This document shows, in pieces, positions 47-19,556 of a DNA stretch of 20,845 bases (position 1 is its first letter; each line of letters starts with the position of its first letter). This DNA comes from a virus. The notes beneath the pieces are model-generated. The model saw nothing but the letters and a program-made list of their open reading frames with translations, was not told where the DNA came from and made no database searches. A program made the position numbers and the translations under genes. The stretch spans positions 1 to 20,845 of IMG/VR virus record IMGVR_UViG_3300032308_001458; one strand, given 5' to 3'.

Positions 47-53
47 TAGACAT
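47..53 (+). promoter_or_regulatory. TAGACA intergenic motif (variant)
   Basis: TAGACAT lies three bases after the putative upstream stop and 21 bases before the ATG at 68. It differs by one base from the TAGACT hexamer found in most other gaps between genes in this window. A -10-like promoter role is inferred from position only. Confidence 0.35.
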
Positions 54-67
54 ACCGGAGCCTGACG

Positions 68-631
68 ATGCCAATAGCAATCGTGGCCACGCCAGGCGCG
101 GCCGACGCAAACAGTTACCTGACACTGGCAGCAGCGCAGGCGATCATTGACGGTTTTGTGCAAGATGCTGATGTCACCGCATGGGCATCGGCTACCACTG
201 ACCAAAAGAATCGGGCATTGTTTACCGCAACGCAACGGCTAGACCGTGAGCGGTTCCTTGGCGCACGGGCGACCGATACGCAGGCACTGCAGTGGCCGCG
301 TACTGGCGTACGCAAGCCGGACACCTATATCAATACCTACGCTGTAGGGTTTCCGTTCCGCATCACGACGGACTATTTCACCGATACCGAGATCCCTACG
401 CAGATTCAGTACGCGCAGGTGGTGCTGGCAACGTACCTGCACAACAACCCGGACGGGCTTGGCCTGAGCGGACTGGAGGACTACAAGAACGTCAAGATCG
501 GCAGCATTGACGTGACGCCTAACCTTGGCTACGGCGCCGTTGGTGCTGACAAGGTGCCGCCAATTATGGAGCGATACCTAACAGGGCTTAGAATCAGTGG
601 ACCGGGCAATTTCTCCATCCGCAGGAGCTGA
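68..631 (+). CDS. Head-tail adaptor, DnaT-like/gp6-like
   Basis: The 187-residue protein has the pattern of the small phage proteins annotated as 'DnaT-like ssDNA binding' or gp6-like head-tail adaptors. It opens with a PGAADANSYLTLAAAQ segment, has an alanine-rich helical middle (about residues 45-65), an ALQWPRTG motif near residue 73 and a second helical section with ATYLHNNPDG. In HK97-type phages such proteins form the ring under the portal that receives the stopper and tail. GGAG at 57-60 gives a Shine-Dalgarno at good spacing, supporting this ATG. It heads a tightly packed connector block. The family label comes from memory of motif patterns, not a search; the DNA-binding name in databases is probably misleading here. 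Confidence 0.7.
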   Translation: MPIAIVATPGAADANSYLTLAAAQAIIDGFVQDADVTAWASATTDQKNRALFTATQRLDRERFLGARATDTQALQWPRTGVRKPDTYINTYAVGFPFRITTDYFTDTEIPTQIQYAQVVLATYLHNNPDGLGLSGLEDYKNVKIGSIDVTPNLGYGAVGADKVPPIMERYLTGLRISGPGNFSIRRS

Positions 632-633
632 CC

Positions 634-861
634 ATGGACGATTACAGCATTGGCTTTGAGTACATCACCGATACGGCAGCTCATACCGGCAGGTTTTACA
701 GGCTCTACGCCGTTGCCGATGCTGTGATCAGCACTGCTACGGTTCAAAACGCAACCGGCAATGCATTTACGTCGGTTCCACTTGGCAAGGGCGATTTCAT
801 CGACGGCGTGTTTACCAGCGTCACGCTGGCTAGCGGCAAAGTCGTCGCCTACCGGATCTGA
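634..861 (+). CDS. Unknown small protein in connector block
   Basis: A 75-residue protein with an excellent Shine-Dalgarno (AGGAG at 623-627) starting two bases after the preceding stop. I do not recognise a family. The sequence is rich in small and beta-branched residues and ends in a pattern of the type DGVFTSVTLASGKVVAYRI, which reads as a compact beta-sheet domain. No membrane segment, signal peptide or cysteine is present. Its place between the adaptor and the head-closure gene suggests a minor structural or decoration protein. The stop overlaps the next start as TGATG, so it is co-translated with its neighbour. Confidence 0.65.
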   Translation: MDDYSIGFEYITDTAAHTGRFYRLYAVADAVISTATVQNATGNAFTSVPLGKGDFIDGVFTSVTLASGKVVAYRI

Positions 862-1217
862 TGGCACTTGCCAGCCCGCTACGGAAGGTTGCCAGCAAGC
901 TGATGGCAAAGTTTGGCGGTGTTGCAACCATCCGTCGCGTAACGGTTGGCGCGTATAACACCACTACTGGTGCAGCGACTGAGACCACCACAGATACCAC
1001 GGTTCGTGGTGTGTTGGAGGATGTCAACCTGCGTCAGGCTAATGATCTTATCCAAGCAGGCGATAAGCGGCTGATGATTGCAGCGGCTGATCTGGCAAGT
1101 GTACCGACCACGGCTGACCGCGTCATTATCAGCAGCCGCAGCCTGCAGATTATCGAGGTGCGCACCATCGAGCAGGACAACACGGCCATTACCTACGAGT
1201 TGATCCTGAGGGACTGA
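861..1217 (+). CDS. Head-closure (stopper)-like protein
   Basis: A 118-residue protein with a basic helical N-terminus (about 1-20), then a beta-rich body: IRRVTVGAYNTTTGA, a VRGVLEDV stretch near residue 50, GDKRLMIAAADL near residue 68, and a final ITYELILRD. This arrangement fits the small beta-barrel head-completion or stopper proteins that sit between adaptor and tail terminator in siphoviruses. Position in the block (third, before an HK97 gp10-like gene) supports that. It starts in a TGATG overlap with no separate Shine-Dalgarno. The specific role is inferred from fold pattern and order, with no diagnostic residue visible. Confidence 0.6.
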   Translation: MALASPLRKVASKLMAKFGGVATIRRVTVGAYNTTTGAATETTTDTTVRGVLEDVNLRQANDLIQAGDKRLMIAAADLASVPTTADRVIISSRSLQIIEVRTIEQDNTAITYELILRD

Positions 1218-1654
1218 TGGCACGTACCATCCGCATTGCAGACATTGGCGACTACGCCAGCCAGCAGTATGAAAAGCTGCTGCGGGTTGCGGTGCTGGAA
1301 ACCGATAGCCGCCTTAAGCTGGCCAGCCCTGTCGATACCGGAAGATTTCGCGCTAGCTGGCAGGTTGGCGAAAATGCCGCCGGTGCATACGACGCAGGTC
1401 CGCAACAGCCATCAAACAATCCAAATCGAGACAAGACCAGCGCTCCTGCTGGCCCTATGTTTCCACTGCGCAAGATGAACTACCAGCAAGAGCAGGTAGG
1501 CAACATCTACTCAGTCCATAACAACTTGCCATATGCTGAACCGTTGGCCAATGGCAGCAGTAAGCAGGCGCCAGCTGGCTGGGTCCAAGGCATCGCCAAG
1601 GACATCCAAGGGTTTGTCCGCGTCAACGCAGACCGCATCGGCAGAGAATCATGA
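1217..1654 (+). CDS. HK97 gp10-like tail completion protein
   Basis: A 145-residue protein carrying the hallmark SPVDTGRFRASW motif at about residues 37-48, preceded by a long amphipathic helix. This signature is shared by HK97 gp10-like and related neck or tail-completion proteins, which complete the head-tail joint or the tail end. Further on, NLPYAEPLANGSSKQAPAGW (about 99-118) matches the second conserved block of that family. Length is normal for the family. The gene begins in a TGATG overlap with the stopper gene and ends in an ATGA overlap with the terminator-like gene. Confidence 0.8.
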   Translation: MARTIRIADIGDYASQQYEKLLRVAVLETDSRLKLASPVDTGRFRASWQVGENAAGAYDAGPQQPSNNPNRDKTSAPAGPMFPLRKMNYQQEQVGNIYSVHNNLPYAEPLANGSSKQAPAGWVQGIAKDIQGFVRVNADRIGRES

Positions 1655-2073
1655 GCAGCACCTACAACGACGTCCGCGCTGCCATTGAAGGCCGCATCGC
1701 CACCGAGATGGCCATTGCACCGGCATATCCGGTCAGTTATCAGAACGTTCCGTTCAGTCCGCCCAATAACACGCCTTGGCTGCAGGCATTTATCCGCTTT
1801 GGCGACAATGCTTACGCAACTCTGCGACCAATCGGCAGCGCTGGCTTTAACCGGCAGAATGGCACGCTTGTGGTAAACGTCTTTACGCCTGTCGGTGCTG
1901 GCGCTGGTGCAAACTTCACCATCGCAGAGCGTGTCAAGGACTTGTTCGACCGGGCAAAATTCAGCAGCATTATCTTTGACGCCGCATCTGGGCCATCGCA
2001 AGTAACGCCAGCATCACCTGAACCGTACTTTCAAACGCAAGTTGTAATGACCTTTGAAGCGTATGTAGACTGA
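1651..2073 (+). CDS. Tail terminator-like protein (DUF4128-like)
   Basis: A 140-residue protein that starts with a helix (TYNDVRAAIEGRIATEM) and continues with beta strands including WLQAFIRFGD, NGTLVVNVFTPVG and QTQVVMTFEAYVD, with a helix ERVKDLFDRAKF between them. This alpha-beta order is that of small tail terminators (lambda gpU-like, DUF4128-like), which cap the tail tube and join it to the head. Its place, directly before the tail tube gene, is where such genes usually lie. The start overlaps the previous stop as ATGA. Family naming is from pattern recognition. Confidence 0.7.
   Translation: MSSTYNDVRAAIEGRIATEMAIAPAYPVSYQNVPFSPPNNTPWLQAFIRFGDNAYATLRPIGSAGFNRQNGTLVVNVFTPVGAGAGANFTIAERVKDLFDRAKFSSIIFDAASGPSQVTPASPEPYFQTQVVMTFEAYVD
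2066..2072 (+). promoter_or_regulatory. TAGACTG motif before tail tube gene
   Basis: TAGACTG straddles the end of the terminator-like gene (codons GTA GAC TGA), 32 bases before the tail tube ATG at 2098. Here the TAG is not in the stop-codon frame, so stop-codon use cannot explain it. The proposed role is a promoter -10 element for an abundant structural protein. Confidence 0.45.
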
Positions 2074-2097
2074 CGCCAGCCAACTACCGCCCATAAC

Positions 2098-2856
2098 ATG
2101 GCTGTTACAGTTTTGTCCGGTACGTCCGGCGCGCTTTACTACAAACCTGCTGGCACCACCGGCACCTTCGGTGAAACTGCCGTCAACATCAGCACCGACG
2201 TCATCACGGTCCAAACTTACCTGAACCTTAAGGTTGGCGATCCGGTCAAGTTCCGCGTGGTCAACAGTCAAACCGGCGGCGCTGGCTCTGGCACCCTGCC
2301 CGCTCCGATCTCGGCTGCCACCACTTACTACGTCCTCAGCTACACCGCTAACACTGGTGCGCTGACCGTCTCGACCGCTGCTGGCGGCACCATCCTCGCC
2401 ATCACCGACGACGGTACCGCAGTTGCTCCCAATGAGTTCGAGGTGTACTACGCCGACTACGCAGCTGTTGGGCAGGTGCAGTCTTGGTCCTTTGAGATCA
2501 ACCGCGCTGAAATCGACGTCACCACCATCGGCCAAACCGCTGGTCAGTACGCGCCGTTCCGTGCTTACATTCCTGGCTTTGCAGATGGCAGCGGCACTGC
2601 TACCGTCTATGTGACCAACGAGGATGCTGCACTGTCCAACCGCATGGTTGAAGACGTGTTGCAGCGTCAGCAGGTCGGTTGCGCTTTCAAGTTGTACACC
2701 GACCTGCAGGCAACCGAAACCCTTAGCCGCAGTATCAGCATGGACGCGGTGCTGCTTACTGCTAGCCTCAATATCAACCCAGACGATGCGCAACAGGTGG
2801 AAATCACATTCCGCCCAACCGGTGCGCCATCGTTTGACTTCAGCACGAGCGCCTGA
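2098..2856 (+). CDS. Major tail tube protein with inserted domain
   Basis: A 252-residue protein. The C-terminal body (about 125-252) carries a tail-tube pattern: QSWSFEINRAEIDVTTIG, then IPGFADGSGTATVYV, and near the end QQVEITFRPTGAPSF. Between the first strand (GALYYKP, about 11-17) and that body sits an extra beta domain (about 28-110) with LKVGDPVKFRV, TTYYVLSY and ITDDGTA, a module type seen in many phage tail proteins. Hundreds of copies would polymerise into the tube around the tape measure. The gene follows a 24-base gap with no Shine-Dalgarno, and TAGACTG lies 32 bases upstream, so it may have its own promoter. It is the first of three proteins in the window sharing this body. Confidence 0.8.
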   Translation: MAVTVLSGTSGALYYKPAGTTGTFGETAVNISTDVITVQTYLNLKVGDPVKFRVVNSQTGGAGSGTLPAPISAATTYYVLSYTANTGALTVSTAAGGTILAITDDGTAVAPNEFEVYYADYAAVGQVQSWSFEINRAEIDVTTIGQTAGQYAPFRAYIPGFADGSGTATVYVTNEDAALSNRMVEDVLQRQQVGCAFKLYTDLQATETLSRSISMDAVLLTASLNINPDDAQQVEITFRPTGAPSFDFSTSA

Positions 2857-3218: not shown

Positions 3219-3375
3219 CCTGCTGATGCTGCAACTGGGTGTAGCCAAGGAATTGGGCTACACCTTGACACGGCTCAAGTCAGAGCTGACCATAGAGGAA
3301 CTGCTTCTATGGTCAGCTTATTTTGACCTGCTCAATGAAGACCAAGAACGTAGAATGAAGCAACACCGACGGTAG
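3187..3375 (+). CDS. Tail assembly chaperone, T-like extension
   Basis: This frame reads KALKAELRRDNLLMLQLGV and goes on to TIEELLLWSAYFDLLNE, then a basic C-terminus ending RRMKQHRR and TAG. The WSAYF-LLNE pattern followed by a charged tail is typical of the T half of G/T tail chaperones, which contacts the tube protein. No strong start codon with a Shine-Dalgarno exists; an ATG at 3226 would give 49 residues. It therefore is either reached by a frameshift from the G-like gene (fusion near 170 residues) or by coupled re-initiation after the G stop. The coding character is clear; the mode of expression is inference. Confidence 0.65.
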   Translation, partial: KALKAELRRDNLLMLQLGVAKELGYTLTRLKSELTIEELLLWSAYFDLLNEDQERRMKQHRR

Positions 3376-3378
3376 GCC

Positions 3379-5694
3379 GTGTCTGTCGTAGCAAACGTTG
3401 CTATTAACGTTGACAGCCGCGCTGCCGTCTCGAAGCTGCGTGACGTTCAGTCGCAAGCCGGCGCAACCCAACGTGCTTTTGACGGCCTTGGCGCCGCCGT
3501 TGGCAAATTAGCGGCTGCATTTGCTGGTATACAGGCAGCTAAGTTTATTTTTGCCAAAACTGCAGAGCTAGAAAGTCAAACCCGCAGTTTGCAAGTATTA
3601 ACTGGCAGCGCGGAAAAAGCTAAGCAGATCATTCAAGAACTGCAGCAGCTTGGCGCGGTCACACCGTTTACCAGCACTGAGTTAATTGATGCGGCAAAGC
3701 GGCTGCAAGCATTTGGCGTTGAAACTAATAAAGTTGTCGAGACTACTAGGAGGCTGGCCGACGTAAGCGGCGCCACTGGTGCTGAATTGCAAACTCTGGT
3801 AACGGCTTATGGCCAAGTGCAGGCCAAAGGCAGGTTGCAGGGTGAAGAGCTGCTGCAGTTCCAAGAGCGTGGCATTGCGCTCCAGGCAGAACTGCGCAAG
3901 ATGTATGGCCTGTCTGGAGACGAGTTCCAAAAGGCACTACAAAAAGGCCGCATCGGCGCAGAAGCAGTCGAGGTTGCAATTGTTCGTCTTACAAGTGCAG
4001 GTGGCAAATACGCTAATGGTGCTATCGCACAAAGTGATACGCTTGCTGGCAAATTTAGCACCTTAACAGATGGCGTTGAGCAACTTGCTCGTACCATCGG
4101 CCAAAAGTTATCGCCAATAATTAAAACAGTTTTAAGTCAAGCAATTGATGCAATTAATCAAATCAACAATTTAATTGGCGCTGGCTTAAGTGCAAACTTT
4201 TCGCGTCGAATTCAAGCAGTCGCGCAACAATTAACGTTTGGCGCACGCGGCGCGGCACTTGAAGGCACGCGATCAATACTACAGGAAATTCAACGGGCAC
4301 CACAGCGTAAAAATGTAGCCGGCATACAAGCACAACTAGACGCCGTTAATCAAGTTAACGCGCAATTACAACGCATTGGCGCACAAGGATTGCCGGATAA
4401 TATTATTACCGACATCATGCAGCAGCAAAACGCAATTACTGGATTGCGTAAAGAATTGCAAGGATATTTGCAAGATTTGCAAAAAGTACAACAACCAAAA
4501 GCACAACAGACACCAGCAACACCAGCTTTGCTTGCGGAAAAAGAGAAAAAGCCACGCCGCAAGTCGCTCGATGAATTGATCGGTGGCGATGTTAAACGCA
4601 CGCTTGAAGAGCGGCAAGCATTTAATGAATTACAAACAGCTCAACGGATGAGTGGGGCTGGCACCGACCAAGCCAAGCGCATGGTTGAGTTTCTTGGCAA
4701 GTATCGCTCTATTGCCAATGAAATTCTTGCTATTAACGAGACTATTGCAAAAGTAGAAGCACAGCGCGATGTATTGCAAGCAAATGGCATCAACGTAAGT
4801 GAAAAATTGCGTGATCTGAACGCAGAAAGACGTAATCTTGTGATAGATTTAAATGCACAACTACAAACGCAATACAACCAAGCAGCAGAGGCTGAGACCG
4901 AACGCCTTCTGGCAGTTGACGAACTGCTAAGTAGTGCACAATATGAATTAGAACTGGCACGCCAAAAAGATCCGTTAAAGCGCGCTGAATTACAAATTGA
5001 TCAACAACTTAAATCCGATGCGATTACAAAATTAAATCTTACTGATAAGCAGTTAAAGCAATTAAAAGACATATTGATGATTACCGAACAGATAAAAAAT
5101 GAAAGCAGCAAAAATGAAGAAATTTTCGAGAGGATGTCTAGCAGTGTCGCTGGCGCGTTTTCTTCTGCTATTGATGCAGTCACTGATAGCACTAAAACAC
5201 TTGGCGATGCGCTGGGAGATATTGGCCGCAAATTGCTGGCAACAATTGGGAATATGCTCATCATGTATGGAATAGCCCAAGCACTTGGTGCATTAGGAGG
5301 TGGCGCGGGTAATCCTCAAGGCATATTCTCGTTCCTTGCTAGAGGTTTTGGTTTCCGCGCCAATGGTGGCCCCGTCTCCGCTGGATCGCCTTATGTCGTC
5401 GGTGAACACGGCCCTGAGCTGTTTGTGCCTGGCAGCAGTGGCAGCATCGTTTCCAACGACAACCTGCGTAGCGCCATGGGCGCCGCACCTGGCAGCGGCT
5501 CGCCGGTGCTCAACATGAGCTTCCAGACAACCAGCATCGGCGGCGTAGAGTACGTCAGTAGAGACCAACTGGAGGCGGCCATGGCCGAAACCCGCCGCCA
5601 AGCCACCCGCGACGGCGCCAGCCGCGGCATGTCGATGACCCTGGATCGCATCAAGCAATCACCGCAAACCCGTAGCCGCATCGGTATCCGCTGA
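3379..5694 (+). CDS. Tail tape measure protein
   Basis: A 771-residue protein with a GTG start three bases after the T-like stop. Residues about 60-240 form the conserved tape-measure N-terminal domain: LQVLTGSAEKAKQIIQELQQ, TPFTSTELIDAAKRLQAFGV, then QGEELLQFQERGIALQAELR. The middle is a long helical, glutamine- and lysine-rich region with a KEKKPRRKSLDEL linker near residue 390. Residues about 586-660 are a weakly hydrophobic segment, and the C-terminus holds a GGPVSAGSPYVVGEHGPELF motif common in these proteins. It sets tail length and is probably ejected with the DNA. At the usual rule of about 0.15 nm per residue the tail would be near 115 nm. The central coding region is far richer in A and T than both ends. 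Confidence 0.93.
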   Translation: MSVVANVAINVDSRAAVSKLRDVQSQAGATQRAFDGLGAAVGKLAAAFAGIQAAKFIFAKTAELESQTRSLQVLTGSAEKAKQIIQELQQLGAVTPFTSTELIDAAKRLQAFGVETNKVVETTRRLADVSGATGAELQTLVTAYGQVQAKGRLQGEELLQFQERGIALQAELRKMYGLSGDEFQKALQKGRIGAEAVEVAIVRLTSAGGKYANGAIAQSDTLAGKFSTLTDGVEQLARTIGQKLSPIIKTVLSQAIDAINQINNLIGAGLSANFSRRIQAVAQQLTFGARGAALEGTRSILQEIQRAPQRKNVAGIQAQLDAVNQVNAQLQRIGAQGLPDNIITDIMQQQNAITGLRKELQGYLQDLQKVQQPKAQQTPATPALLAEKEKKPRRKSLDELIGGDVKRTLEERQAFNELQTAQRMSGAGTDQAKRMVEFLGKYRSIANEILAINETIAKVEAQRDVLQANGINVSEKLRDLNAERRNLVIDLNAQLQTQYNQAAEAETERLLAVDELLSSAQYELELARQKDPLKRAELQIDQQLKSDAITKLNLTDKQLKQLKDILMITEQIKNESSKNEEIFERMSSSVAGAFSSAIDAVTDSTKTLGDALGDIGRKLLATIGNMLIMYGIAQALGALGGGAGNPQGIFSFLARGFGFRANGGPVSAGSPYVVGEHGPELFVPGSSGSIVSNDNLRSAMGAAPGSGSPVLNMSFQTTSIGGVEYVSRDQLEAAMAETRRQATRDGASRGMSMTLDRIKQSPQTRSRIGIR

Positions 5695-6098
5695 TGGCCA
5701 CGTTCCCCTCGATCACACCAACAGGCCGCAGCTTCCGTCCTGGCGTGTACCCACAAAAGACTTACCGCGCCCTTAGCGGCGCCACCGTCAAGCGCACCTA
5801 CGGCAACTCCCCCTACGGCGCCCAGCTCGATCTGGAGTTCGACAGCATCTCTGACGCCACCGTCGTCACCCTGCTGGACCACTACCGCAGCCAGACTGCG
5901 GCCAACCGCCGCTTCACCCTCAGCAGCAACGTCACCGCTGGGATGTCCAGCACCTTGGCTACTCGCGCTAACGCCAGCATCGACGGCCTGCGCTGGGAAT
6001 ACGCTGGTCCACCAGAAGTGCAAACTATCCGCCCCGGCATCAACAACGTCCGTATTAACCTCGCTGGCGAAATCCGCAATCCCCTCCTCGACGACTGA
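5694..6098 (+). CDS. Minor tail protein, lambda M-like by position
   Basis: A 134-residue protein starting in a TGATG overlap with the tape measure gene. It is beta-rich with conserved-looking elements SFRPGVYPQKTYRALSGATV, a YGAQLDLEFDSIS strand, a helix VVTLLDHYRSQ and a closing INNVRINLAGEIRNPLLDD. Size, fold pattern and location straight after the tape measure match lambda gpM-type tail-tip proteins, which form the first ring where the tube is started. No catalytic motif, membrane segment or cysteine is seen. The family assignment relies mainly on gene order. Confidence 0.6.
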   Translation: MATFPSITPTGRSFRPGVYPQKTYRALSGATVKRTYGNSPYGAQLDLEFDSISDATVVTLLDHYRSQTAANRRFTLSSNVTAGMSSTLATRANASIDGLRWEYAGPPEVQTIRPGINNVRINLAGEIRNPLLDD

Positions 6099-6562: not shown

Positions 6563-6948
6563 TCAACGTCAACGACCTGATTGGACTGACCTACGGCTGG
6601 GGCCACCGGCCAGACGACAACAGCGGCCTCACCGACTGCTTTCAGCTGGCCTGCGAAATCCACCGCCGCTTCGGCTTGGCGGACTACGCACCAGCCTTCG
6701 CTTGGGTCTACAACGAGTTCAATAACGACACCTTCCCGCGAATCCGCATGGCCCGCTGGCTCTTGCACAATGGCAGCCGCCTAACCACCCCCCAATCGGC
6801 CGCCGTCGCTTTACTGCCCTCCGACGTTGGCGCAGCCCTCGGCACCGTCATGGAGGACGGCAGCACTGTTTTTATCGGCCCGTCTCATAATGTAGTAAGA
6901 GCCAAGCTGCCAGAAGGCACCGGCCAATTCTTCTGGATGGAGCGATGA
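6559..6948 (+). CDS. NlpC/P60-like tail protein, probably inactive
   Basis: A 129-residue protein starting with GTG in a GTGA overlap. The N-terminal part, YGWGHRPDDNSGLTDCFQLA, matches the NlpC/P60 nucleophile region, with the presumed catalytic Cys27 in the DC pair. In active family members a histidine precedes a short strand (HVGIY-like). The corresponding segment here reads GAALGTVMEDGSTVFIGPSH, with alanine where the histidine should be. The only nearby histidine is His110. In lambda the K protein of this type sits at the tail tip and may trim host wall. Here the loss suggests a structural rather than cutting role, though a relocated histidine cannot be excluded. It lies just before the J-like gene, as in lambda. 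Confidence 0.7.
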   Translation: MINVNDLIGLTYGWGHRPDDNSGLTDCFQLACEIHRRFGLADYAPAFAWVYNEFNNDTFPRIRMARWLLHNGSRLTTPQSAAVALLPSDVGAALGTVMEDGSTVFIGPSHNVVRAKLPEGTGQFFWMER

Positions 6949-9900
6949 CCCGCAAGCTGCTGCCCTACGAGCACGACCTTATTGCTGCCCTTGGCGTCAC
7001 CAAAGAAGAATACCTAGACTTCCTTGCTGTCCAGCAAGCATATACCGACGCAAAAGAAGGCACAGTTTTTGACACCAGAGCAGACTTTGGTATTACGGCA
7101 CTGGTTCTGACAATCGTCGGCGTCATTTTCCAGGTTGCTTCTGTACTACTGACACCACGCCCCGAAATACCATCAATTTCGACAGCAGGCGGTGAACGCC
7201 AAACCCGTGAGCAGCGGTTTTCGCCACGGTTCGGCTTCAACAGCGTCCAAGAACTCGGCAAATACGGCGACACTGTCCCGCTGGTTTACACAGACCGCTC
7301 CAGCAGCGGCAACGCTAACGGCGGCGTCCGTGTTGCCGGTTCGCTGCTATGGTCCGCAGTCCGAAGCTACGGCAGCAATCAACTGTTGCAGATGCTAATG
7401 CTGCTGGCTGGTGGCGCCATCACGCGGATCGACCCGCTTAAATCCGCCTTCGGTCAAACAGTCATCACCGACCTGATCGCGCAGAACAAATGGATCTACT
7501 TCAACGACGATGCCACTGGCGCATTGCGCTGGGCTGATGAATTAAATGCTTCTGGCGATACTGACCCAACAAAATATGGCAGCGCCAACGACAATCCCTA
7601 CCGCTTGCAGCCTGCCGTCAGCAACACCCGCGTAGATGGTTTCAGCCAGGCGTACTCGCCCAGCAGCTCAAACATCTTTGGCGCTTACAGCCCTGTTCCG
7701 ATCAATGTCAATACTTACCTGCGCAACGAAACTGGCGACAAAGGTTCCCGCAACATCGAGATCTATGCCACCGGCTGGCCCGCAGCTCTAGCAACCATTT
7801 CACTCGGCCAGACACTGCAGTTGCAGTTCAAGTCAACAGGTAACCCGCCAACTGGCACCGCTTTCGAGGACGACCTGGTGCGTAGCGCCATGGACACCCG
7901 CCGGACGCTGGCCAGCGTGTTCGACGATGCCGGCATCTTCAAGTTGGGCTCTGCTCGTTACCGCATCAGCCGCATCACGGGCACTACCACCGACGAAGGC
8001 GACTTTTTTGTGGATCTGGTCTGTATCGAAGCCGGACGTGCCCCTTCCCTGTCGTACCAGTACGACGAAGTTACTGATACCGCAGCCGACTACAAAAATC
8101 AGCCGAGCTATATAAATAACAAAGCAACCGTTGATGCACTGCTTGCAGAAGATGAACGAGACACAATCAACAATGCAACCGAGCTACTGGCCTCAGGGCA
8201 AATATGGAAAACCTTGTATGACTATACGTATGACGAGTACGGAAATAGCTACGCCTACGCATATGATGTTGGGTTTTCTCGTGATTTAACAGAAAATGAA
8301 AAAGCAATTTTAAGAACATATGTCGCCGCCGAGCGTGCAGCAACAGTAGGCAGCGATGAGCTTTTTTATCTCAAAGCTATTGCTCGCGTCGAAGAAGCCT
8401 CGTACACCACCGTTTCACCTTGCAACATTGTCGACATTGCGTTGAAGGCGCAGGTCTACCGTCGCATCTCCGGTAGGCAGCAGACATACGGCAGCGAACG
8501 CCGTGCCGGTTATGCCATCAGCGACAACGGTATCCAGCAACGTGTATCTCTGTTCCTGCTGCATTACCGCATCGCCGGTGGCGCCTATACCACAGCACCT
8601 GGCATCTTTGCCATCCGCCGTGCAGCCGAGCAGGACAACTTTATCTACATCAAATTCAACGGCGGCGCCACCGCCCAAAACTGGCAGTTTCGACTGGAAC
8701 CCATCGTCGATCCAGTGGCAGAGATCGCCAAACACAGCTTCATGCGCCAGTCCAATGGCACTGTCCGGTATTTCTATCTGCAAAATTCCGGCAACGCCGC
8801 GACGCTGAGCCTTGGTTCTGGTCGGGAGTTGTACTTCACCGGCTTTACGCAAAACAGCAAAATCAACGGCCTACCGCCGCTGAACGACTCACCCAACGGC
8901 ACCAACGAGTGGGACTGGTTCAACCTTGACGCCGACACCCAACTGCAAACATCATTCGAGCGTGGCCCTGAAATGGGCATCACTGCTGTCAGCGAGCAAC
9001 TGACGCAAAGCTTTACGTCTGCGTTGTATTCCAACTTGGCATTGATCGGCTTCAACGTGTTTAGCGGTAAGAGCCTGCAGGATATGCGCTCGTTTTCCGC
9101 CTTTGTCACCGGCGGCAAGCCAGTCCGTCGCATCCGCACATCCGGCAACGACGAAAACAGCAACACATGGGGCAGCCCAACTTATCGCTACTACCCCGTC
9201 ACGCCCAACGGCCCAACCAGCTTTGCGCCTGACATCTTCTTAGATACCATCCTCGACGCGCAAGACGGCATCGGCAACTACGCCAAGATCAACGGCATCG
9301 ATCTGCGTCAACTGGCAATCAGCAAGCGATTTTGCCAAGCAAACAACCTGTTCATGGATGCGCTCATTGCCGACCGCCAGAGCTGGCGCAGTTTCTGGGC
9401 AGCCAATGCACCGTTCAGTCTGTTGGAATTTGCCCGCATCGGCGGCCGCGAAACCCTGATCCCAAGCATCCCCTACAATCCAACCACTGGTGCAATCCAA
9501 CGCCAGATCCAAATAACGGCCCTGTTCAACCAAGGCAACATCCTCGAAGACAGCTACAAAGAAGAGTTTCTCGACTATGACGCCAACGTCCAAGACATCA
9601 TCGCCACTGTCATCTACCGCTCACTCGATAGCAACGGCACCTTTGCTGTAAACCGCTCGATCACGGTGCAACGCCGCGACACGAACACAGCCAATGCCAT
9701 CTTGCAGTCATTCGACGCATCGGCTTTTGTCACCAACGAGGCCCAGGCCATCCTGTTCGGCAAGCTGATGTGCAACACCCGCCGGCACGTCCGTTCCGCC
9801 ATCGAGTTCAAAACCTACCCCACCACAAGCCCGATCTCACCTGGCTCGTACATTTACGTCGATATCGGCCACAACGCTTGGGATGGCATCACCACCGGCG

Positions 9901-10229
9901 TCATCGGCCCCGATGGCAAACTCAACTCTCCCGTCGACAACACAGTCCGCAACGGCAGCTACTCTTTCCTGCTTTACCAAAGCGGTAGCGGTGTGCTACA
10001 GACTACCGCCACCGTGAGCAATGGCGTTGCTCCAGCACTGACAGCCCGCGAAGGTTGGCTCTATGTCATCGGCACCAAGGTAAAATCCCGTCGCGTCTAC
10101 CGCGTCAGCGAGGTGCAGATGGACGAAGAAGGCGAGGTGACTATCCGCGGCACAATTTTTCCCTGCGACGCTGCTGATAACTCGCTGATTGCGGATTTCA
10201 GCGACAACCTCTTTGCTATCCAACGCTAG
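6945..10229 (+). CDS. Tail tip / host-specificity protein, J-like
   Basis: A 1094-residue protein, the largest here, starting in an ATGA overlap with the NlpC-like gene. Residues about 49-70 (GITALVLTIVGVIFQVASVL) are strongly hydrophobic and could be a membrane or tip-plug helix. Next comes RFGFNSVQELGKYGDTVPLV, a pattern typical of the N-terminal hub part of J-like proteins. The rest is long, aromatic- and asparagine-rich and beta-like, with a late segment around LMCNTRRHVRSAIEFKTYP that resembles the conserved hub domain end, and a closing GEVTIRGTIFPCDAADNS. It would form the central tail tip that contacts the cell surface. The C-terminal receptor part is not one I recognise. The stop TAG is itself part of the intergenic TAGACTG motif. 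Confidence 0.8.
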   Translation: MTRKLLPYEHDLIAALGVTKEEYLDFLAVQQAYTDAKEGTVFDTRADFGITALVLTIVGVIFQVASVLLTPRPEIPSISTAGGERQTREQRFSPRFGFNSVQELGKYGDTVPLVYTDRSSSGNANGGVRVAGSLLWSAVRSYGSNQLLQMLMLLAGGAITRIDPLKSAFGQTVITDLIAQNKWIYFNDDATGALRWADELNASGDTDPTKYGSANDNPYRLQPAVSNTRVDGFSQAYSPSSSNIFGAYSPVPINVNTYLRNETGDKGSRNIEIYATGWPAALATISLGQTLQLQFKSTGNPPTGTAFEDDLVRSAMDTRRTLASVFDDAGIFKLGSARYRISRITGTTTDEGDFFVDLVCIEAGRAPSLSYQYDEVTDTAADYKNQPSYINNKATVDALLAEDERDTINNATELLASGQIWKTLYDYTYDEYGNSYAYAYDVGFSRDLTENEKAILRTYVAAERAATVGSDELFYLKAIARVEEASYTTVSPCNIVDIALKAQVYRRISGRQQTYGSERRAGYAISDNGIQQRVSLFLLHYRIAGGAYTTAPGIFAIRRAAEQDNFIYIKFNGGATAQNWQFRLEPIVDPVAEIAKHSFMRQSNGTVRYFYLQNSGNAATLSLGSGRELYFTGFTQNSKINGLPPLNDSPNGTNEWDWFNLDADTQLQTSFERGPEMGITAVSEQLTQSFTSALYSNLALIGFNVFSGKSLQDMRSFSAFVTGGKPVRRIRTSGNDENSNTWGSPTYRYYPVTPNGPTSFAPDIFLDTILDAQDGIGNYAKINGIDLRQLAISKRFCQANNLFMDALIADRQSWRSFWAANAPFSLLEFARIGGRETLIPSIPYNPTTGAIQRQIQITALFNQGNILEDSYKEEFLDYDANVQDIIATVIYRSLDSNGTFAVNRSITVQRRDTNTANAILQSFDASAFVTNEAQAILFGKLMCNTRRHVRSAIEFKTYPTTSPISPGSYIYVDIGHNAWDGITTGVIGPDGKLNSPVDNTVRNGSYSFLLYQSGSGVLQTTATVSNGVAPALTAREGWLYVIGTKVKSRRVYRVSEVQMDEEGEVTIRGTIFPCDAADNSLIADFSDNLFAIQR

Positions 10230-10233
10230 ACTG
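10227..10233 (+). promoter_or_regulatory. TAGACTG motif after J-like gene
   Basis: TAGACTG begins with the stop codon of the J-like gene and lies 29 bases before the ATG at 10256. The intervening leader (CACCATCAAGCTACGCCTACC) has no Shine-Dalgarno. A promoter role is inferred from recurrence of the motif in the other gaps. Confidence 0.45.
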
Positions 10234-10255: not shown

Positions 10256-10747
10256 ATGGCCTTTTTTACCGGGCGCACTGGTGCGCTGTTCCTGACCTCA
10301 GTCGGCAGCGGAGTCGTTAGCCCCAACAGCACCGAGCAGGCCCTGAAGCTGCGTGACTGGTCACTAGAGACCAGCCTAGAGCTGCTGGAAACCACAACCG
10401 TTGACACCGCCGTCAAGAGCTATACCCCTGGTGCCGTCAGCTCGACCGGCAGCGCCACTGTCCTGTACTACCGCCGCGAAGGCACCACCAGCACCGAGCC
10501 CGGCGTGCAGTTTGACCAGTTCCTGAACCGCATCATGAAGACCAGCACTGCTGGTGTGACCGAGTCTGACCGCATCGGCATCGTTCTGCGCGTGGGTCAG
10601 ACCGCTGGTTTCGGGGACATTAAAGACGACATCGCCTTTAACGCCTACATCACCAGTGCTTCGATGCAGGTTTCTACTGGCGAACTGTCCTCAGTGGCCA
10701 TCCAGTTCACCGTTGACGGTCCCTTCCGCGAACTCATTGACGCATGA
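10256..10747 (+). CDS. Tail tube-like protein, paralogue 2
   Basis: A 163-residue protein with the same core pattern as the major tail tube protein: a first strand GALFLTSV, then LRDWSLETSLELLETTTVD (about 32-50), SYTPGAVSSTGSATVLYYR, and the ending SSVAIQFTVDGPFREL. Unlike the 2098 protein it has no inserted domain, so it is close to a minimal tube fold. Its position after the J-like gene, not beside the chaperones, argues against a role as the main tube. It could form a ring or collar at the tip, or anchor the fibres encoded just downstream. It follows a 26-base gap without a Shine-Dalgarno and ends in an ATGA overlap with paralogue 3. Confidence 0.65.
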   Translation: MAFFTGRTGALFLTSVGSGVVSPNSTEQALKLRDWSLETSLELLETTTVDTAVKSYTPGAVSSTGSATVLYYRREGTTSTEPGVQFDQFLNRIMKTSTAGVTESDRIGIVLRVGQTAGFGDIKDDIAFNAYITSASMQVSTGELSSVAIQFTVDGPFRELIDA

Positions 10748-11616
10748 CGTACTTTTTAGGGCAGTACGGCAAAGTCAAACTTCGCCGTAGGGCTGCTGGC
10801 ATGTTTGCCAGTTCTGTCCTGCCCGCAGACGTCAACACAATTCTTGACCGCGTTGGTTTGGAAGGTTCCGTCGAGAACCTGCTGACCGGCGACCAATTGG
10901 TCATCACCACTACAGATGCCCGCGGCCTCGACTTCCTGCCCAGCTCCACTTGGCCTGACGGTGGTGGTGCCACGCTCAACCAAGTCGTCGCCTACGCCAA
11001 CGTCAATGCTATCGGCGGTGTCCGTTTTTTCAATACTTTTAGCGCTGCCATCAACAACGACCGCAGCGTTGAGTATCCCGTAGAAACCTTCACCGGAGAT
11101 GCCATCCCGCTTACGGTCCAGATTTACGGCTCTGTCGAGCGTGTTCTTGGCGACGTCCGAAGTTTCAGCTTTAACACCGACCGCGAATCCCTGGAAACCA
11201 CGACCATGTCCGACCGCTTCAAGCGGATGTACTCGGCAGGTCTAATCAGCGGCTCTGGCTCGATCGATTGCATCTTCAACGCCACCAACAGCGGCTTGGT
11301 CGAAAACTCCTTATTGATGCTGCAACTCATTAACCGTACCGAAATCGGCAGCGAATTTGACTGCTACCTTCAGCTCACCGAAGACGAGAATTACCCTGGC
11401 GTTCAGGACATCTACTACGAATTCCAAGCGATGGTCACTCGCACTGGAATCGAAGTCGCCACAGACCAAACCATCAACTGTGCCATCGACTTCGTCACTA
11501 CCGGCGAAATCAAACTTCTGATTGGCGAACCCTCGGGCTACATCCTCAAGGAGGACACCGACCGCATCCGCCTGCAGCAAAATCTTGACTTCCTCCTGAC
11601 TGAAGTCACCGACTAA
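10744..11616 (+). CDS. Tail tube-like protein, paralogue 3
   Basis: A 290-residue protein. Residues about 133-275 repeat the tube-type core: LGDVRSFSFNTDRESLETTT, then YSAGLISGSGSIDCIF, and near the end TINCAIDFVTTGEIKLLIG. Ahead of that, between the first strand (GKVKLRRR) and the core, lies an inserted domain (about 28-130) containing LLTGDQLVITTT, in the same place as the insert of the major tube protein. The gene overlaps paralogue 2 as ATGA, so the pair is probably made together and may assemble together. The start has no Shine-Dalgarno. Function is inferred: a second ring, tip or fibre-attachment component. Confidence 0.6.
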   Translation: MTYFLGQYGKVKLRRRAAGMFASSVLPADVNTILDRVGLEGSVENLLTGDQLVITTTDARGLDFLPSSTWPDGGGATLNQVVAYANVNAIGGVRFFNTFSAAINNDRSVEYPVETFTGDAIPLTVQIYGSVERVLGDVRSFSFNTDRESLETTTMSDRFKRMYSAGLISGSGSIDCIFNATNSGLVENSLLMLQLINRTEIGSEFDCYLQLTEDENYPGVQDIYYEFQAMVTRTGIEVATDQTINCAIDFVTTGEIKLLIGEPSGYILKEDTDRIRLQQNLDFLLTEVTD

Positions 11617-11630
11617 ACTGCTAGAAGACT
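11614..11630 (+). promoter_or_regulatory. TAAACTG / CTAGAAG motif variant before fibre 1
   Basis: The gap opens with TAAACTG (11614-11620), one base different from TAGACTG and again beginning with the stop codon, and is followed at once by CTAGAAGACT. Either could be the degenerate form of the intergenic motif. The fibre 1 ATG lies 41 bases after the first T. Weaker support than the exact sites. Confidence 0.3.
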
Positions 11631-11654
11631 TTTTGCTGTAGCCGGAGCTGGCGC

Positions 11655-14243: not shown

Positions 14244-14413
14244 TGACGCACCGCTCAACCAACTTCGTCTACAGCGCCGAGAACGTCCCGATCGGCGGAC
14301 AACCCGGTGATGTCCTCCTCAAAGTCCAAGGCGCCAACTACTACACCGCTTGGCGCGACTTCACCTACGTCTTCGAAACCTACGACGTAGTACTCGACGA
14401 CGGCGAATACTAG
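14243..14413 (+). CDS. 56-aa orphan fibre module
   Basis: A 56-residue ORF starting in a TAATG overlap with the fibre 1 stop and ending in TAG at 14411-14413. The middle, PIGGQPGDVLLKVQGANYYT followed by AWRDFTY, resembles the 'GQxGxVLxKxSxxDYxxxW' module that phage fibres normally carry inside a longer chain. Here it stands alone. It may be a small adapter or assembly factor for fibre 1, or a detached C-terminal piece of it. Codon use is GC-rich like its neighbours, and the tight coupling supports translation. Confidence 0.6.
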   Translation: MTHRSTNFVYSAENVPIGGQPGDVLLKVQGANYYTAWRDFTYVFETYDVVLDDGEY

Positions 14414-14417
14414 ACTG
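14411..14417 (+). promoter_or_regulatory. TAGACTG motif before fibre 2
   Basis: TAGACTG begins with the stop codon of the 56-aa gene and sits 40 bases before the fibre 2 ATG. The leader also has a strong Shine-Dalgarno (AGGAG at 14438-14442, with AAGGGA at 14445-14450). Confidence 0.45.
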
Positions 14418-14450
14418 GTGCGGTAATCCCGTCCGTCAGGAGTTAAGGGA

Positions 14451-17400: not shown

Positions 17401-17504
17401 TCAACTACAGCGTGCTCTACATGAAAGCAGTGAAGGCACTGCAGGAGGCAATGGAGCGCATCGAAACCCTCGAAGTCAAAGTTGCAGCCCTTGAGGCGTC
17501 GTAG
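14451..17504 (+). CDS. Tail fibre 2 with S74 chaperone domain
   Basis: A 1017-residue protein with a strong Shine-Dalgarno. The N-terminus (HKHIRSGTANKRPTTAIADG, then SPGLFFKDSTGASIIKVGPV) is of a kind I associate with picocyanobacterial phages. LLELATDAETQAGSDTARAV (about 110-129) is a common fibre linker. The shaft has repeats of DADINASAAIADTKL type, then several SSGNVGIGTTSP-like turns. The last 106 residues are an intramolecular chaperone of peptidase family S74, starting SDIKLKENI with presumed catalytic Ser912 and Lys917, followed by a terminal coiled coil (KAVKALQEAMERIETLEVKV). It should trimerise the fibre and cut itself off before Ser912. Coding bases become clearly richer in A and T from about 15840 to 17250, marking a separately acquired distal part. 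Confidence 0.92.
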   Translation: MASTHKHIRSGTANKRPTTAIADGQIALNTNTTSPGLFFKDSTGASIIKVGPVHVGATAPNATPAAGGSSGNSTGEVWLDNSLTPVGVKIWNGSAWVNATPIGSTTVQGLLELATDAETQAGSDTARAVTPASLQSKVSDSTSTTSSTTIASSTAVKSAYDLANAALPKSGGTITGNLEIGTSGSLSFEGSTADAFETTIAVTNPTADRTITLPDTTGTVVTTGDTGTVTSTMLLDGTIVDGDINASAAIAHSKLANITAGSVLLGNATNVPTATALSGDVTVNSSGVTAISSGAIVDADINASAAIADTKLATIATADKVSLSALNIDGGTDIGAALADADLFIVDDGGAGTNRKAAATRITDYAFGKVSGDITIGSTGTAAIGSGVIVNADVNASAAIAGTKISPDFGSQTVATTGLVSTGTGTAGAPTITFTGDTNTGIYSPGADQVAISTGGTGRLFVDASGNVGVGVTPSTWNSSTKSFEISTVGGVVGDAFTTKLATNCFYNTSGNWIYRTSAGASRYEVERGAHTWYNAASGTAGNTATFTQAMTLDSSGRLGLGTSSPSQLLEVENSSGNVAINITSSDAGYAELYFGDQSNASACALSYEHSSNKLRFYNGGSARVTLDSSGNVGIGTTSPGSIFHCFGTGSQEVTLTSNTSGNARYSFDLPGVVYNWIETERSTSALKFAVANSERMRIDSSGRLLVGTSTALNVEPFVAAQVQTEARYGYASIYRGNDAGGPAFYFIKSRAASAATVVQSGDILGEIRFQGADGGDYETPGGTIKCEVDGTPGANDMPGRLVFSTTADGASSPTERMRINNAGYAKFGISGSYEGGNIYEFNGGENTGACLVVRWTPSGINSGNAFIVKTPNTAAATTHVLIAADVSSGNVFRVRADGNVYNTNGVYGSISDIKLKENIVPAASQWNDIKALQVRKYNFKEGLTHTQIGVIAQEVEQVSPGLVYETSDLDEDGNETGEVTKGVNYSVLYMKAVKALQEAMERIETLEVKVAALEAS
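17184..17501 (+). other. S74 intramolecular chaperone coding segment
   Basis: Encodes residues 912-1017 of fibre 2. The known chemistry of the family is self-cleavage before the serine of an S-D-x-x-L-K-x-N-I motif, which is seen complete here. The released trimer domain would not be in the mature virion. Confidence 0.85.
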
Positions 17505-17527
17505 TCCTACTCCCTACTGACCCGTCC

Positions 17528-17533
17528 TAGACT
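17528..17533 (+). promoter_or_regulatory. TAGACT motif before 107-aa gene
   Basis: TAGACT lies wholly between genes, 23 bases after the fibre 2 stop and 26 bases before the ATG at 17554. This is the cleanest case, since no coding or stop-codon constraint applies. Confidence 0.5.
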
Positions 17534-17553
17534 CCTACAGTCACCCACTAACC

Positions 17554-17877
17554 ATGACCGACACCATCTTTACTTGGGCTATCGCTCAACTGGAGCGCGA
17601 GACCAGCGACGGTTACGTTTTCACCGCCCACTACACCGTCAACGCTGCTGACGGCACCTACACCAGCGGCGCCTACGGCAGTCTCGGCTTCGAGCGCCCC
17701 GAGGACGACATGGTGCCATTTGCTGACCTGACCGAAGAAATGGTCATCGGCTGGGTCAAGGACAAATTCGGCCCCGAAAAGGTTGCCGAGATTGAAGCCG
17801 CCCTGCAGTCCCAACTGGACGAGCAGCACCACCCCACCAGAGCTAGTGGGATGCCTTGGCAAGCAGCGCTAGCATGA
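17554..17877 (+). CDS. Conserved small cyanophage-type protein
   Basis: A 107-residue protein opening FTWAIAQLERETSDGYVFTA, with AHYTVNAADGTYTSGAYGS and an acidic helical second half (PFADLTEEMVIGWVKDKFG). I recall close relatives as a small protein family common near fibre genes of cyanobacterial phages (DUF7936-like), but the name is uncertain and no function is known to me. The fold appears to be a short helix, a beta sheet and a C-terminal helix. There is no membrane segment. It has a gap, a TAGACT site and a C-rich leader without a Shine-Dalgarno, so it is probably transcribed from its own promoter together with the lysis genes. Confidence 0.65.
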   Translation: MTDTIFTWAIAQLERETSDGYVFTAHYTVNAADGTYTSGAYGSLGFERPEDDMVPFADLTEEMVIGWVKDKFGPEKVAEIEAALQSQLDEQHHPTRASGMPWQAALA

Positions 17878-17881
17878 AGCC

Positions 17882-18130
17882 ATGATTGAGCTGATCGCTG
17901 CTGTTGCTGGGGCATCCATCAGCGTCGCCGCGATGGGCGCGATGGGTTTCAGCCGCCGCAGCGACGAAGCTCGCGAGGCAGTGATCAGGCTTACCGCTGC
18001 AGTGGAGCACATCGCAACCCAACTCGAAGTGCTCCATACCGACATCCGCAGCGATCGCCAAGAGACATTTAAGCGGCTCAATGGCGTCGAGCAGCGGGTG
18101 GCTACGCTAGAGGCACGCCCACATCATTAG
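17882..18130 (+). CDS. Small membrane-anchored coiled-coil protein
   Basis: An 82-residue protein with one hydrophobic segment at the N-terminus (IELIAAVAGASISVAAMGAM, residues 2-21), two basic residues after it (RR), then a long predicted coiled coil with heptad-like leucine and valine spacing (AVIRLTAAVEHIATQLEVLH to RVATLEARP). It lies in the lysis region before a second small membrane protein and the endolysin. The order (membrane segment first, then coiled coil) resembles a spanin-like or holin-accessory protein and is the reverse of XhlA-type proteins. No lipobox is visible. The lysis role is inferred from context only. The start lies four bases after the preceding stop. Confidence 0.6.
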   Translation: MIELIAAVAGASISVAAMGAMGFSRRSDEAREAVIRLTAAVEHIATQLEVLHTDIRSDRQETFKRLNGVEQRVATLEARPHH

Positions 18131-18132
18131 TC

Positions 18133-18273
18133 ATGGATTTCCTGTCCCATCCTGCTTTTTGGATCGTCGTGGCAGCAGCCAGTGAGCTGATCGCCCTGTC
18201 TCCCCTCAAAAGCAACAGCATCATCCAGCTGGTTTTCCAGATCCTCAACCTGCTCAAAGCAAAAAAGGGTTGA
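18133..18273 (+). CDS. 46-aa membrane protein, putative holin
   Basis: A 46-residue ORF starting two bases after the upstream stop. It has a hydrophobic stretch HPAFWIVVAAASELIALSPL (residues 6-25), a second amphipathic segment (IIQLVFQILNLL) and a basic end KAKKG. Size, membrane character and closeness to the endolysin suggest a holin or antiholin, but no holin family is recognised. Its last codons are GCA AAA AAG GGT TGA, which hold a perfect -1 slippery heptamer (18261-18267). A share of ribosomes could therefore continue into the next frame and make a 124-residue product. Confidence 0.6.
   Translation: MDFLSHPAFWIVVAAASELIALSPLKSNSIIQLVFQILNLLKAKKG
18261..18267 (+). other. A_AAA_AAG slippery heptamer, candidate -1 frameshift
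   Basis: AAAAAAG is in the exact register A AAA AAG relative to the 46-aa frame, the same heptamer that drives the -1 shift in E. coli dnaX. It lies two codons before the stop. The -1 frame continues GGG TTG ATC into the 78-aa ORF. A small hairpin (AGCG at 18298-18301 with CGCT at 18305-18308) is rather far downstream, so a stimulator is not obvious. Confidence 0.5.
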
Positions 18274-18506
18274 TCCGCTTTGGCAAGCCTTTATGGGAGC
18301 GCCGCGCTGAACAAGCCATTCGGCAATGGTGGTTTGAGCACACGCTGCCGGCCAAGCTGGACAAGGCGGAAGCTGATTGGCATGCTGCGCAACCTATAGC
18401 GCCAGAGCCGGTCATTACACATGAATTGATTGACGATGAGTTGCAGACCGGCGACAGCCGGTTGTTAGGTGGTCCCATGAGCATCAAATCACCATGGTCA
18501 AACTGA
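18270..18506 (+). CDS. Unknown 78-aa frame, perhaps -1 fusion partner
   Basis: The frame reads IRFGKPLWERRAEQAIRQWW onward, ending LGGPMSIKSPWSN, with a basic, tryptophan-rich first half and an acidic second half. I recognise no family. Its only local start is TTG at 18270, overlapping the 46-aa stop as TTGA; the AGGG before it touches the start codon and cannot serve as a ribosome site. The frame is open back to 18186 with no ATG or GTG in it. Expression by a -1 shift at 18261-18267 is thus at least as likely as a TTG start, and would place this soluble part behind the membrane segments of the 46-aa protein. The last 13 bases overlap the endolysin gene. Confidence 0.5.
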   Translation: MIRFGKPLWERRAEQAIRQWWFEHTLPAKLDKAEADWHAAQPIAPEPVITHELIDDELQTGDSRLLGGPMSIKSPWSN

Positions 18507-19552
18507 GCGATCTGTTCCGGTACTACAAACACGGCACGCCACATCAAATGGCGGCCATCTTTGAATTAGAGGCAGAGCTATTAAAGGTTGCGCCGGAACT
18601 ATTCAGCAAAGACCAGCCGTGGTACAAGACTTGGCAGCAGGGAGGCAAGCTGCATAGCTACGAGGCGGCAGCCAAACTGATCAAAGAGTTTGAAGGTTGC
18701 CACCTATCGGCTTACCCTGATCCGCTTAGCGGCGGCGATCCTTGGACCATCGGCTACGGCACCACTAGGTACAGCGACGGCCGCAAGGTGCAGCGCGGTG
18801 ACAAGATCACGGTCATTGAGGCCAGCAAGCTGCTGGACCTCGAGATTGAGCGCACTGCCGATAAACTGCGGGCGACCGTGCCGTTCTGGAACGCCATGAA
18901 CGGCGACAAGCAGTGCGCCCTAATTAGTTTTGCCTATAACCTCGGCAGCGGTTTCTACGGCACAACTGGCTTTGAAACGATCAGCAAGCGGCTGAAAGAA
19001 AAGGACTGGGATGCAGTGCCAGAGGCGATGCTGCTGTATCGCAACCCTGGCACCAATGTGGAAGCTGGGTTGCTGCGCCGCCGGCAGGCTGAGGGGCGAC
19101 TGTGGGGCGAGGCCGTGCAAGCCTTGCCGTACAAGGTAAAGCCCAGCGATCCGTTCAGCACCAAGTTGTCGGCACACTTCACCCTTGGTGAGTTTGCGCT
19201 AGGCGATCCTGCGCGGCGGTTCGTGGCGCAGCATCAGATCGACACTGCAGCCGAGCTGGCAGCATTCTTGGAGCGCGTGCGCACGGCATTTGGCGGTAAG
19301 CGCATTACGATCACCAGCGGCTACAGGCCAGCAGCGATCAACCGCGCTGTCGGTGGTGCATCAGGCAGTGAGCATCTTTACGACGCTCCCAATGTGGGAG
19401 CTGTTGACTTCTACGTCGATGGCGCGGATATCAACAAGGTGCAGGCATGGGTGGATCGCGAATGGCCTTACAGTGTCGGCTATGGCGCGCCGAAGGGGTT
19501 CGTCCATCTAGGCATTCGCAAAGGCAGACCACGCGTGCGCTGGGACTATTAG
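18494..19552 (+). CDS. Endolysin: GH24 lysozyme plus M15 peptidase
   Basis: A 352-residue two-domain lysis enzyme. Residues about 55-210 are a T4-type lysozyme (muramidase): IKEFEGCHLSAYPDPLSGGD with catalytic Glu67, then WTIGYGTT, and later ALISFAYNLGSG and EAGLLRRRQAEGRLW. Residues about 225-352 are a zinc D,D-carboxypeptidase-type M15 domain: FTLGEFALGDPARRF, ITSGYRPAAINRAVGGASGS, with likely zinc ligands His294, Asp305 and His338. The first 50 residues are an extra helical part. No signal peptide is visible, so a holin is needed for release. Together the domains would cut both glycan strands and peptide stems. The start overlaps the preceding frame by 13 bases. Confidence 0.9.
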   Translation: MVKLSDLFRYYKHGTPHQMAAIFELEAELLKVAPELFSKDQPWYKTWQQGGKLHSYEAAAKLIKEFEGCHLSAYPDPLSGGDPWTIGYGTTRYSDGRKVQRGDKITVIEASKLLDLEIERTADKLRATVPFWNAMNGDKQCALISFAYNLGSGFYGTTGFETISKRLKEKDWDAVPEAMLLYRNPGTNVEAGLLRRRQAEGRLWGEAVQALPYKVKPSDPFSTKLSAHFTLGEFALGDPARRFVAQHQIDTAAELAAFLERVRTAFGGKRITITSGYRPAAINRAVGGASGSEHLYDAPNVGAVDFYVDGADINKVQAWVDREWPYSVGYGAPKGFVHLGIRKGRPRVRWDY

Positions 19553-19556
19553 ACTG
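19550..19556 (+). promoter_or_regulatory. TAGACTG motif after endolysin
   Basis: TAGACTG begins with the endolysin stop codon and lies 30 bases before the metallophosphoesterase ATG at 19580, in a gap with no clear Shine-Dalgarno. Confidence 0.45.

Follow-up and report, generated by a model that had tools for sequence, protein, structure and literature searches.

Placement of the hexamer in the window

What is the function of a short word, TAGACT, that recurs just ahead of genes in the virus record IMGVR_UViG_3300032308_001458? The window, that is, the whole stretch of DNA analysed here, is this entire record of 20,845 bases, which is classed as linear and represents a 20.8-kb fragment from a siphovirus relative of Synechococcus phage KBS-S-2A. 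The major tail proteins of the window and of cyanophage KBS-S-2A, a siphovirus infecting Synechococcus WH7803, share 84% identity, and the neck, tail, fibre, and lysis genes of the window form one long array on the same strand. In a close relative, G015 (42 kb, near-complete), packaging and capsid genes lie on the same strand as the window-type genes, and replication genes and a sigma factor gene lie on the opposite strand. The hexamer is very probably the -10 element of late promoters in the KBS-S-2A-like cyanosiphovirus lineage, because it is the top gap word in relatives and is followed, seven letters on, by a conserved letter at which transcription is likely to start.

Exact TAGACT occurs six times in the window, at 2066, 7015, 10227, 14411, 17528, and 19550, always on the plus strand and never on the minus strand. 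This raw count is ordinary, 3.8 copies being expected from shuffled sequences. Positions 20-45 nucleotides (nt) ahead of a start codon account for 2.9% of the window but for five of the six copies (binomial P = 1.1e-7); for such placement TAGACT comes out top among 3,790 hexamers. The distances to the start are 32 (2066), 29 (10227), 40 (14411), 26 (17528), and 30 nt (19550); the spacing thus varies, and the fixed-spacing pattern TAGACTG-N15-ATG had no match. No start codon of a called gene lies 20-45 nt downstream of the copy at 7015, and TANACT was found in none of the 38 orthologous upstream regions of the gene at 6945.

These results agree with a preliminary description of the window, which had placed five copies at gaps and the sixth inside a J-like gene. 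Of the two variants that it listed in addition, TAAACT at 11614 is confirmed, since 33 of the 41 upstreams of orthologues carry TARACT. TAGACA at 47 had been read in the wrong register, since orthologues conserve TAAACT or TACACT at 42-47, 26 nt before the ATG at 68. The 139-nt gap ahead of 18270 lacks the motif. One site had been overlooked: TAGAAT at 3351, which stands 28 nt ahead of the tape-measure start codon, a GTG. The word TAGAAT shows an 11-fold gap enrichment; it occupies this site in G015 as well, and TAGACT or TAAACT is found there in some relatives.

Conservation and enrichment among relatives

All hexamers at positions -50 to -10 were compared between gap-preceded and abutting genes of the majority (late) strand in 24 genomes, which comprised the window, KBS-S-2A, and 22 contigs. 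TAGACT was the top hexamer, preceding 49 of 353 gap-preceded genes versus 1 of 367 abutting genes (p = 3e-15), and TAAACT came second, with 38 versus 1. On the minority strand TAGACT preceded 1 of 198 genes. Its reverse complement was not found in the same upstream comparison (0), and TATAAT was never seen there. Relatives are common in metagenomes, with at least 600 matches in one scan. The gaps of the more distant cyanosiphoviruses S-CBS1, S-CBS3, S-LBS1, and S-2L held no TA[ACG]ACT form, so that the code seems to be confined to KBS-S-2A-like phages.

The site ahead of the major tail gene extends, out of frame, into the last codons of the tail-terminator gene, and TAGACT was intact in 80 of 80 relatives, though flanks, spacing, and frame vary. 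In each of the 72 matching cases the tail-terminator gene closes with [C/T/G]TA GAC and a stop codon; in these gene ends leucine is always encoded by TTA or CTA, which together account for 17.6% of Leu codons, and aspartate always by GAC. This codon choice shows selection on the DNA word and not on the protein.

The upstreams of the 23 window genes were compared with those of their orthologues. TANACT was rare or nil in the orthologous upstreams of most abutting genes, with exceptions at 17882 (17/53) and 5694 (9/35); counts for the individual sites are listed in Table 1. Among orthologues the hexamer appears as TAGACT, TAAACT, TACACT, TAGAAT, TAAAGT, TAGGAT, TAAGAT, or TAAGCT, the last five of these being listed upstream of 10256, and all replacements remain within TANNNT. 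This is the pattern of a sigma-70-family -10 element, in which T(-12), A(-11), and T(-7) are kept and the middle is free.

Anatomy of the putative promoters

Non-redundant gap sites (n = 53) were aligned on the hexamer only, which was taken as -12 to -7. Besides the hexamer itself, two columns stood out. At offset 12, corresponding to +1, A was present in 70% and G in 21% of the sites (p = 2.5e-12), compared with A in 29% of control copies on the same strand and 21% on the other strand. At offset 6 (-6), G was present in 58% of the sites. C was weakly preferred at -13. In KBS-S-2A, for which deposited gene starts could be used, all six late-strand TA[ACG]ACT gap sites, which precede the genes at 5663, 5996, 18112, 20524, 32907, and 34305, have A at +1; KBS-S-2A is also among the 24 genomes, so that this result checks the gene starts and is not fully independent of the sample. 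The hexamer lies mainly 26-32 nt, and also 38-41 nt, from the start codon. This variable distance indicates that the +1/-6 signal is not a translation signal. The commonest predicted 5' untranslated region (5'UTR) is about 14-20 nt long.

No other promoter element was detected. The best match to TTGACA at proper spacing averaged 2.83 of 6 positions, compared with 2.68-2.96 at shifted positions; there was no excess of a classic -35 box (TTGACA, 15-19 nt spacer), and the columns around -35 carried no information. An extended -10 (TGn) was found in 0 of 53 sites, no UP-like or AT-rich upstream block rose above background, the AT content peaking at the hexamer alone, and no motif was found in the 45 nt ahead of the hexamer. 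A standard sigma-70 scan of the window returned 6 sites versus 8.5 expected, none of them at the hexamers.

The late promoters would thus be of a type with the -10 element alone, unaccompanied by a -35 box, by an extended -10, or by an UP element, and the consensus would read C(-13, weak) T(-12) A(-11) [G/A/C](-10) A(-9) C(-8) T(-7) G(-6) N5 then A(+1). They would head structural, lysis, and associated transcription units. The RNA polymerase holoenzyme would start at the conserved purine, whose predicted position 7 nt after the hexamer is that expected of the sigma-70 family, and the genes served would be expressed late. The preliminary description had likewise preferred a phage -10 element, lacking any common -35 box, over a processing site, and forecast RNA starts 6-8 bases past the hexamer. 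The conserved A, the predicted start, lies 7 bases past it; the strand-specific gap enrichment, the retention of TANNNT, the purine at +1, G(-6), and the lack of -35 and extended -10 elements all point the same way. Enrichment in gaps elsewhere and conservation in related phages, which had been set beforehand as the tests that could refute the proposal, both came out in its favour.

Several points weigh against this interpretation. Lateness is deduced from strand and gene content, and not from timing. The first letters of several sites in the window are those of the preceding gene's stop codon, and this alone constrains T(-12) and A(-11). At three of the eight window sites, offset 12 is occupied by a base other than A (G at 14411 and 17528, and T followed by A at 19550). 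TA[ACG]ACT lies up to 70 nt upstream of 128 of 406 gap genes, the rest having variants or something else, and the gene starts of the contigs were taken from a simple gene caller. What comparison of the sequences shows is the position, the strand, the conservation, the +1/-6 preferences, the lack of other elements, and the late-strand bias.

The search for classic -35 boxes gave no overall excess on either strand. It did detect a separate promoter type in several relatives, TTGACA-17-TACGAT, before the gene that precedes the capsid gene. In G015 (oriented position 24253), as in G016, G018, G020, G021, and G024, TTGACA or TTGCCA stands 15-17 nt from TACGAT, and this TACGAT-type promoter is 35 nt before the start of the gene ahead of the major capsid gene. 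The same phages would therefore also hold a -35-containing promoter.

Alternative explanations of the hexamer

Two explanations that do without transcription initiation were weighed. The hexamer might be an RNA processing site at which late mRNAs are trimmed, a reading in keeping with the location of the sites just upstream of genes within one long same-strand array and with the conserved A 7 nt downstream, which could be the position of the cut. It predicts none of the promoter-specific details, however. The substitutions obey TANNNT with T kept at the last position, G(-6) and the +1 purine are promoter signatures, and the rise in AT content is confined to the hexamer; we therefore consider processing very unlikely. 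Still harder to credit is that the hexamer is a by-product of stop-codon context or of codon use at gene ends. The sites at 10227, 14411, and 19550 do begin with the upstream TAG stop, that of the endolysin gene supplying the first letters of the site at 19550. The site at 2066 is out of frame, however, and that at 17528 is wholly intergenic, as had been argued from the start. The rare Leu codons kept at 2066 preserve the DNA word, and abutting genes lack the hexamer. We rejected this explanation on the contrast with abutting genes and on the Leu and Asp codons, and hold to the late-promoter interpretation.

Candidate readers of the promoters

Which sigma factor would read these promoters was considered as a question within the late-promoter interpretation, with which a phage sigma and a host sigma are both compatible as sub-hypotheses. 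The reader is most likely core polymerase with a group-2-type sigma, phage-encoded where present and otherwise a host sigma, which would act on -10-only promoters as at cyanobacterial type 2 promoters.

One possibility, which we advance tentatively and judge to fall well short of an even chance, is that a phage sigma with a degenerate, -35-reading region 4 is the dedicated, or main, reader and a convergent counterpart of T4 gp55. Sigma-70 region 2 was detected in 18 of 26 related records, including that of the near-identical relative G015, which has its sigma gene on the other strand, presumed to be the early one. In all seven sigmas tested, regions 1.2, 2, and 3 scored above the Pfam cut-offs; for region 4, five fell under the cut-off and one was borderline, the KBS-S-2A sigma alone having it intact. 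The helix for -35 recognition reads KARLHS, RTKLQN, KITLSD, and similar, its residues being replaced in nearly all but KBS-S-2A. The equivalent -35-reading helix of E. coli sigma70 carries RERIRQ. A degenerate region 4 fits promoters without a -35 box, although a helix-turn-helix is still predicted in region 4 of the phage sigma (mean predicted local distance difference test score, pLDDT, 74). Against a dedicated phage reader, no sigma could be detected in G026, a genome that its 127-nt terminal repeat marks as complete, yet TA[ACG]ACT stands there before orthologous genes. KBS-S-2A uses the same motif with a sigma whose region 4 is intact (37.6 bits), whereas S-CBS1, S-CBS3, and S-LBS1 have a sigma and no TA[ACG]ACT in gaps. 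A was present at +1 in 65% of sites in sigma-less genomes (n = 20) and in 78% of those in the others (n = 32). G026 and the same +1 A in sigma-less genomes make the phage sigma a candidate and not a requirement. That the motif strictly depends on a phage sigma was rejected as necessary, since G026 has no detectable sigma but keeps the motif.

The prospect that a host sigma, SigA or a group 2 factor, reads the hexamer, with TA[GAC]ACT as the lineage's flavour of a host -10-only TANNNT promoter, seems to us nearly an even one. It would explain the use of the motif by a phage, complete in sequence, in which no sigma is detectable. Two picocyanobacterial genomes served as host proxies; in these, the density of TANNNT ahead of genes was 11-12 times that within genes, and here too a -35 box was lacking. 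The core differs in these proxies, which may not be the hosts: TAGG[C/G/A/T]T dominates, TA[ACG]ACT accounts for 5 of 183, and there is no strong +1 signal. The restriction to the late strand would moreover need an extra factor if a host sigma were the reader.

The sigma genes themselves were inspected. The G015 gene (L282:17446-18336) and those of 17 other related records are group-2-like; their regions 1.2-3 are strong and their region 4 has decayed. In G015 this gene faces the phosphoesterase gene, so that a counterpart would lie just past the right end of the window. The sigma-70 gene annotated in S-2L (L422, 6951-7271) encodes just 107 aa and stops within region 2, next to ambiguous bases, so that either a sequencing artefact or a defective gene may account for it.

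Comparison with known systems

Cyanobacterial type 2 promoters consist of the -10 hexamer alone and are used by group 2 sigma factors, in many cases together with an activator; one artificial type 2 promoter could be used in vitro by SigD but not by SigA (PMC2758279). The sites described here resemble them in having a TANNNT -10 hexamer and no -35 box. They differ in reading TA[GAC]ACT instead of TATAAT, in forming a repeated set over phage late operons, and in that no activator site was seen in the 45 nt before the hexamer.

Late transcription in T4 uses one TA-rich box. T4 late promoters have no -35 element and are served by the gp55/gp33/gp45 system (PMC2988020). The likeness lies in the -10 element alone, in its place at the head of late operons (lateness being deduced in the present case), and in a phage sigma-like candidate reader in most relatives. 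In contrast, gp55 has no equivalent of sigma region 4 whereas the phage sigma here retains a degenerate one, the hexamers differ, and one relative, G026, lacks a detectable sigma altogether. That cyanosiphoviruses evolved a late switch independently of T4, in which a host-derived group 2 sigma lost -35 reading and became matched to TA[GAC]ACT-G-N5-A promoters, with sigma-less relatives using another reader, is a scenario that we regard as doubtful.

Among cyanophages, cyanosiphoviruses including P-SS2 carry group 2 sigma factors, as stated in the parts of the reports considered here (PMC2784084, PMC6157547, PMC3751600). Those parts of the reports on P-SS2 and other cyanosiphoviruses predict classic sigma-70 promoters or none, and describe no -10-only late motif. 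For Ma-LMM01, which has no gp55-type sigma, a late consensus, WTNNANN16-22TATTMT, was proposed from four promoters (PMC5780444). Ma-LMM01 is alike in having sigma-70-like promoters at late cyanophage genes and unlike in that consensus. A search for TAGACT as a phage promoter in the literature collection used here returned nothing relevant.

A compact promoter code with predicted starts would make the late-operon map of these phages readable from sequence. Standard -35/-10 finders overlook such promoters, and the published accounts of cyanosiphovirus gene control, in the parts considered here, offer generic promoter predictions. With the code, it also becomes possible to test which of two factors drives -10-only late promoters, a host sigma or a phage sigma whose region 4 is degenerate.

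Individual sites and neighbouring genes

Table 1. Predicted -10 elements, the additional TAGACT copy, and two genes of the window
Feature	Position	Strand	Base at -6	Predicted +1	Predicted 5'UTR	Hexamer in orthologous upstreams	Remarks
-10 TAAACT, head-tail adaptor (Ad1)	42..47	+		A54	14 nt to ATG 68	TANACT 24/25 (distinct upstreams)	
-10 TAGACT, major tail protein	2066..2071	+	G	A2078	20 nt to ATG 2098	TANACT 39/44 (gene-by-gene comparison)	
-10 TAGAAT, tape measure	3351..3356	+	G	A3363	16 nt to GTG 3379	TANACT 6/17	
-10 TAGACT, second tail-tube-like operon (10256-11616)	10227..10232	+	G	A10239	17 nt	TAGACT or TAAACT 29/44	
-10 TAAACT, first tail fibre	11614..11619	+	G	A11626	29 nt to ATG 11655	TANACT 35/41	
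-10 TAGACT, second tail fibre	14411..14416	+	G	G14423	28 nt to ATG 14451	TAGACT 13/19, TANACT 15/19	
-10 TAGACT, gene 17554 (DUF7936) and downstream lysis genes	17528..17533	+		G17540	14 nt	TANACT 6/11, mainly TACACT	TACACT in G015
-10 TAGACT, phosphoesterase	19550..19555	+	G		about 17 nt to ATG 19580	TAGACT 36/38	
TAGACT in J-like tail gene	7015..7020	+					treated as chance copy, no promoter
Major tail (tube) protein gene	2098..2856	+					phrog_158 major tail protein, E 1.4e-9; served by 2066 site
Endolysin (phage lysozyme and peptidase M15)	18494..19552	+					PF00959, PF08291; phrog_28234

At the phosphoesterase site offset 12 falls on T19562, and the next base is A19563. The 5'UTR of this gene (19556-19579, GTGTAAGCCGCTACAAACGGC before the ATG) is nearly invariant among relatives and has no Rfam match; a GCCG/CGGC hairpin could form immediately ahead of the start codon. 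The 5'UTR of the second tail fibre (14423-14450, GTAATCCCGTCC....GGAGTTAAGGGA before the ATG) is almost invariant in L102, L112, L123, L144, and others. The fibre proteins of the relatives that share it are just 48-95% identical, and the conservation goes far beyond what a spacer needs. In L138 the stop codon at this site is shifted and TACACT is present elsewhere.

Between the J-like gene and the fibres, 10256-11616 encodes two more proteins, of which the second alone matches a major tail protein, weakly (phrog_10528, E 0.0019). In the region 18131-18493, the 139-nt gap without promoter hexamer precedes a frame with a TTG start (18270); either the actual start codon or a small gene may have gone undetected there. 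Rfam and tRNA searches of the window gave no matches. An HNH endonuclease frame (PF01844, 20543-20845) continues past the right end of the window, and its position is between the phosphoesterase region and the place that the sigma gene has in relatives.

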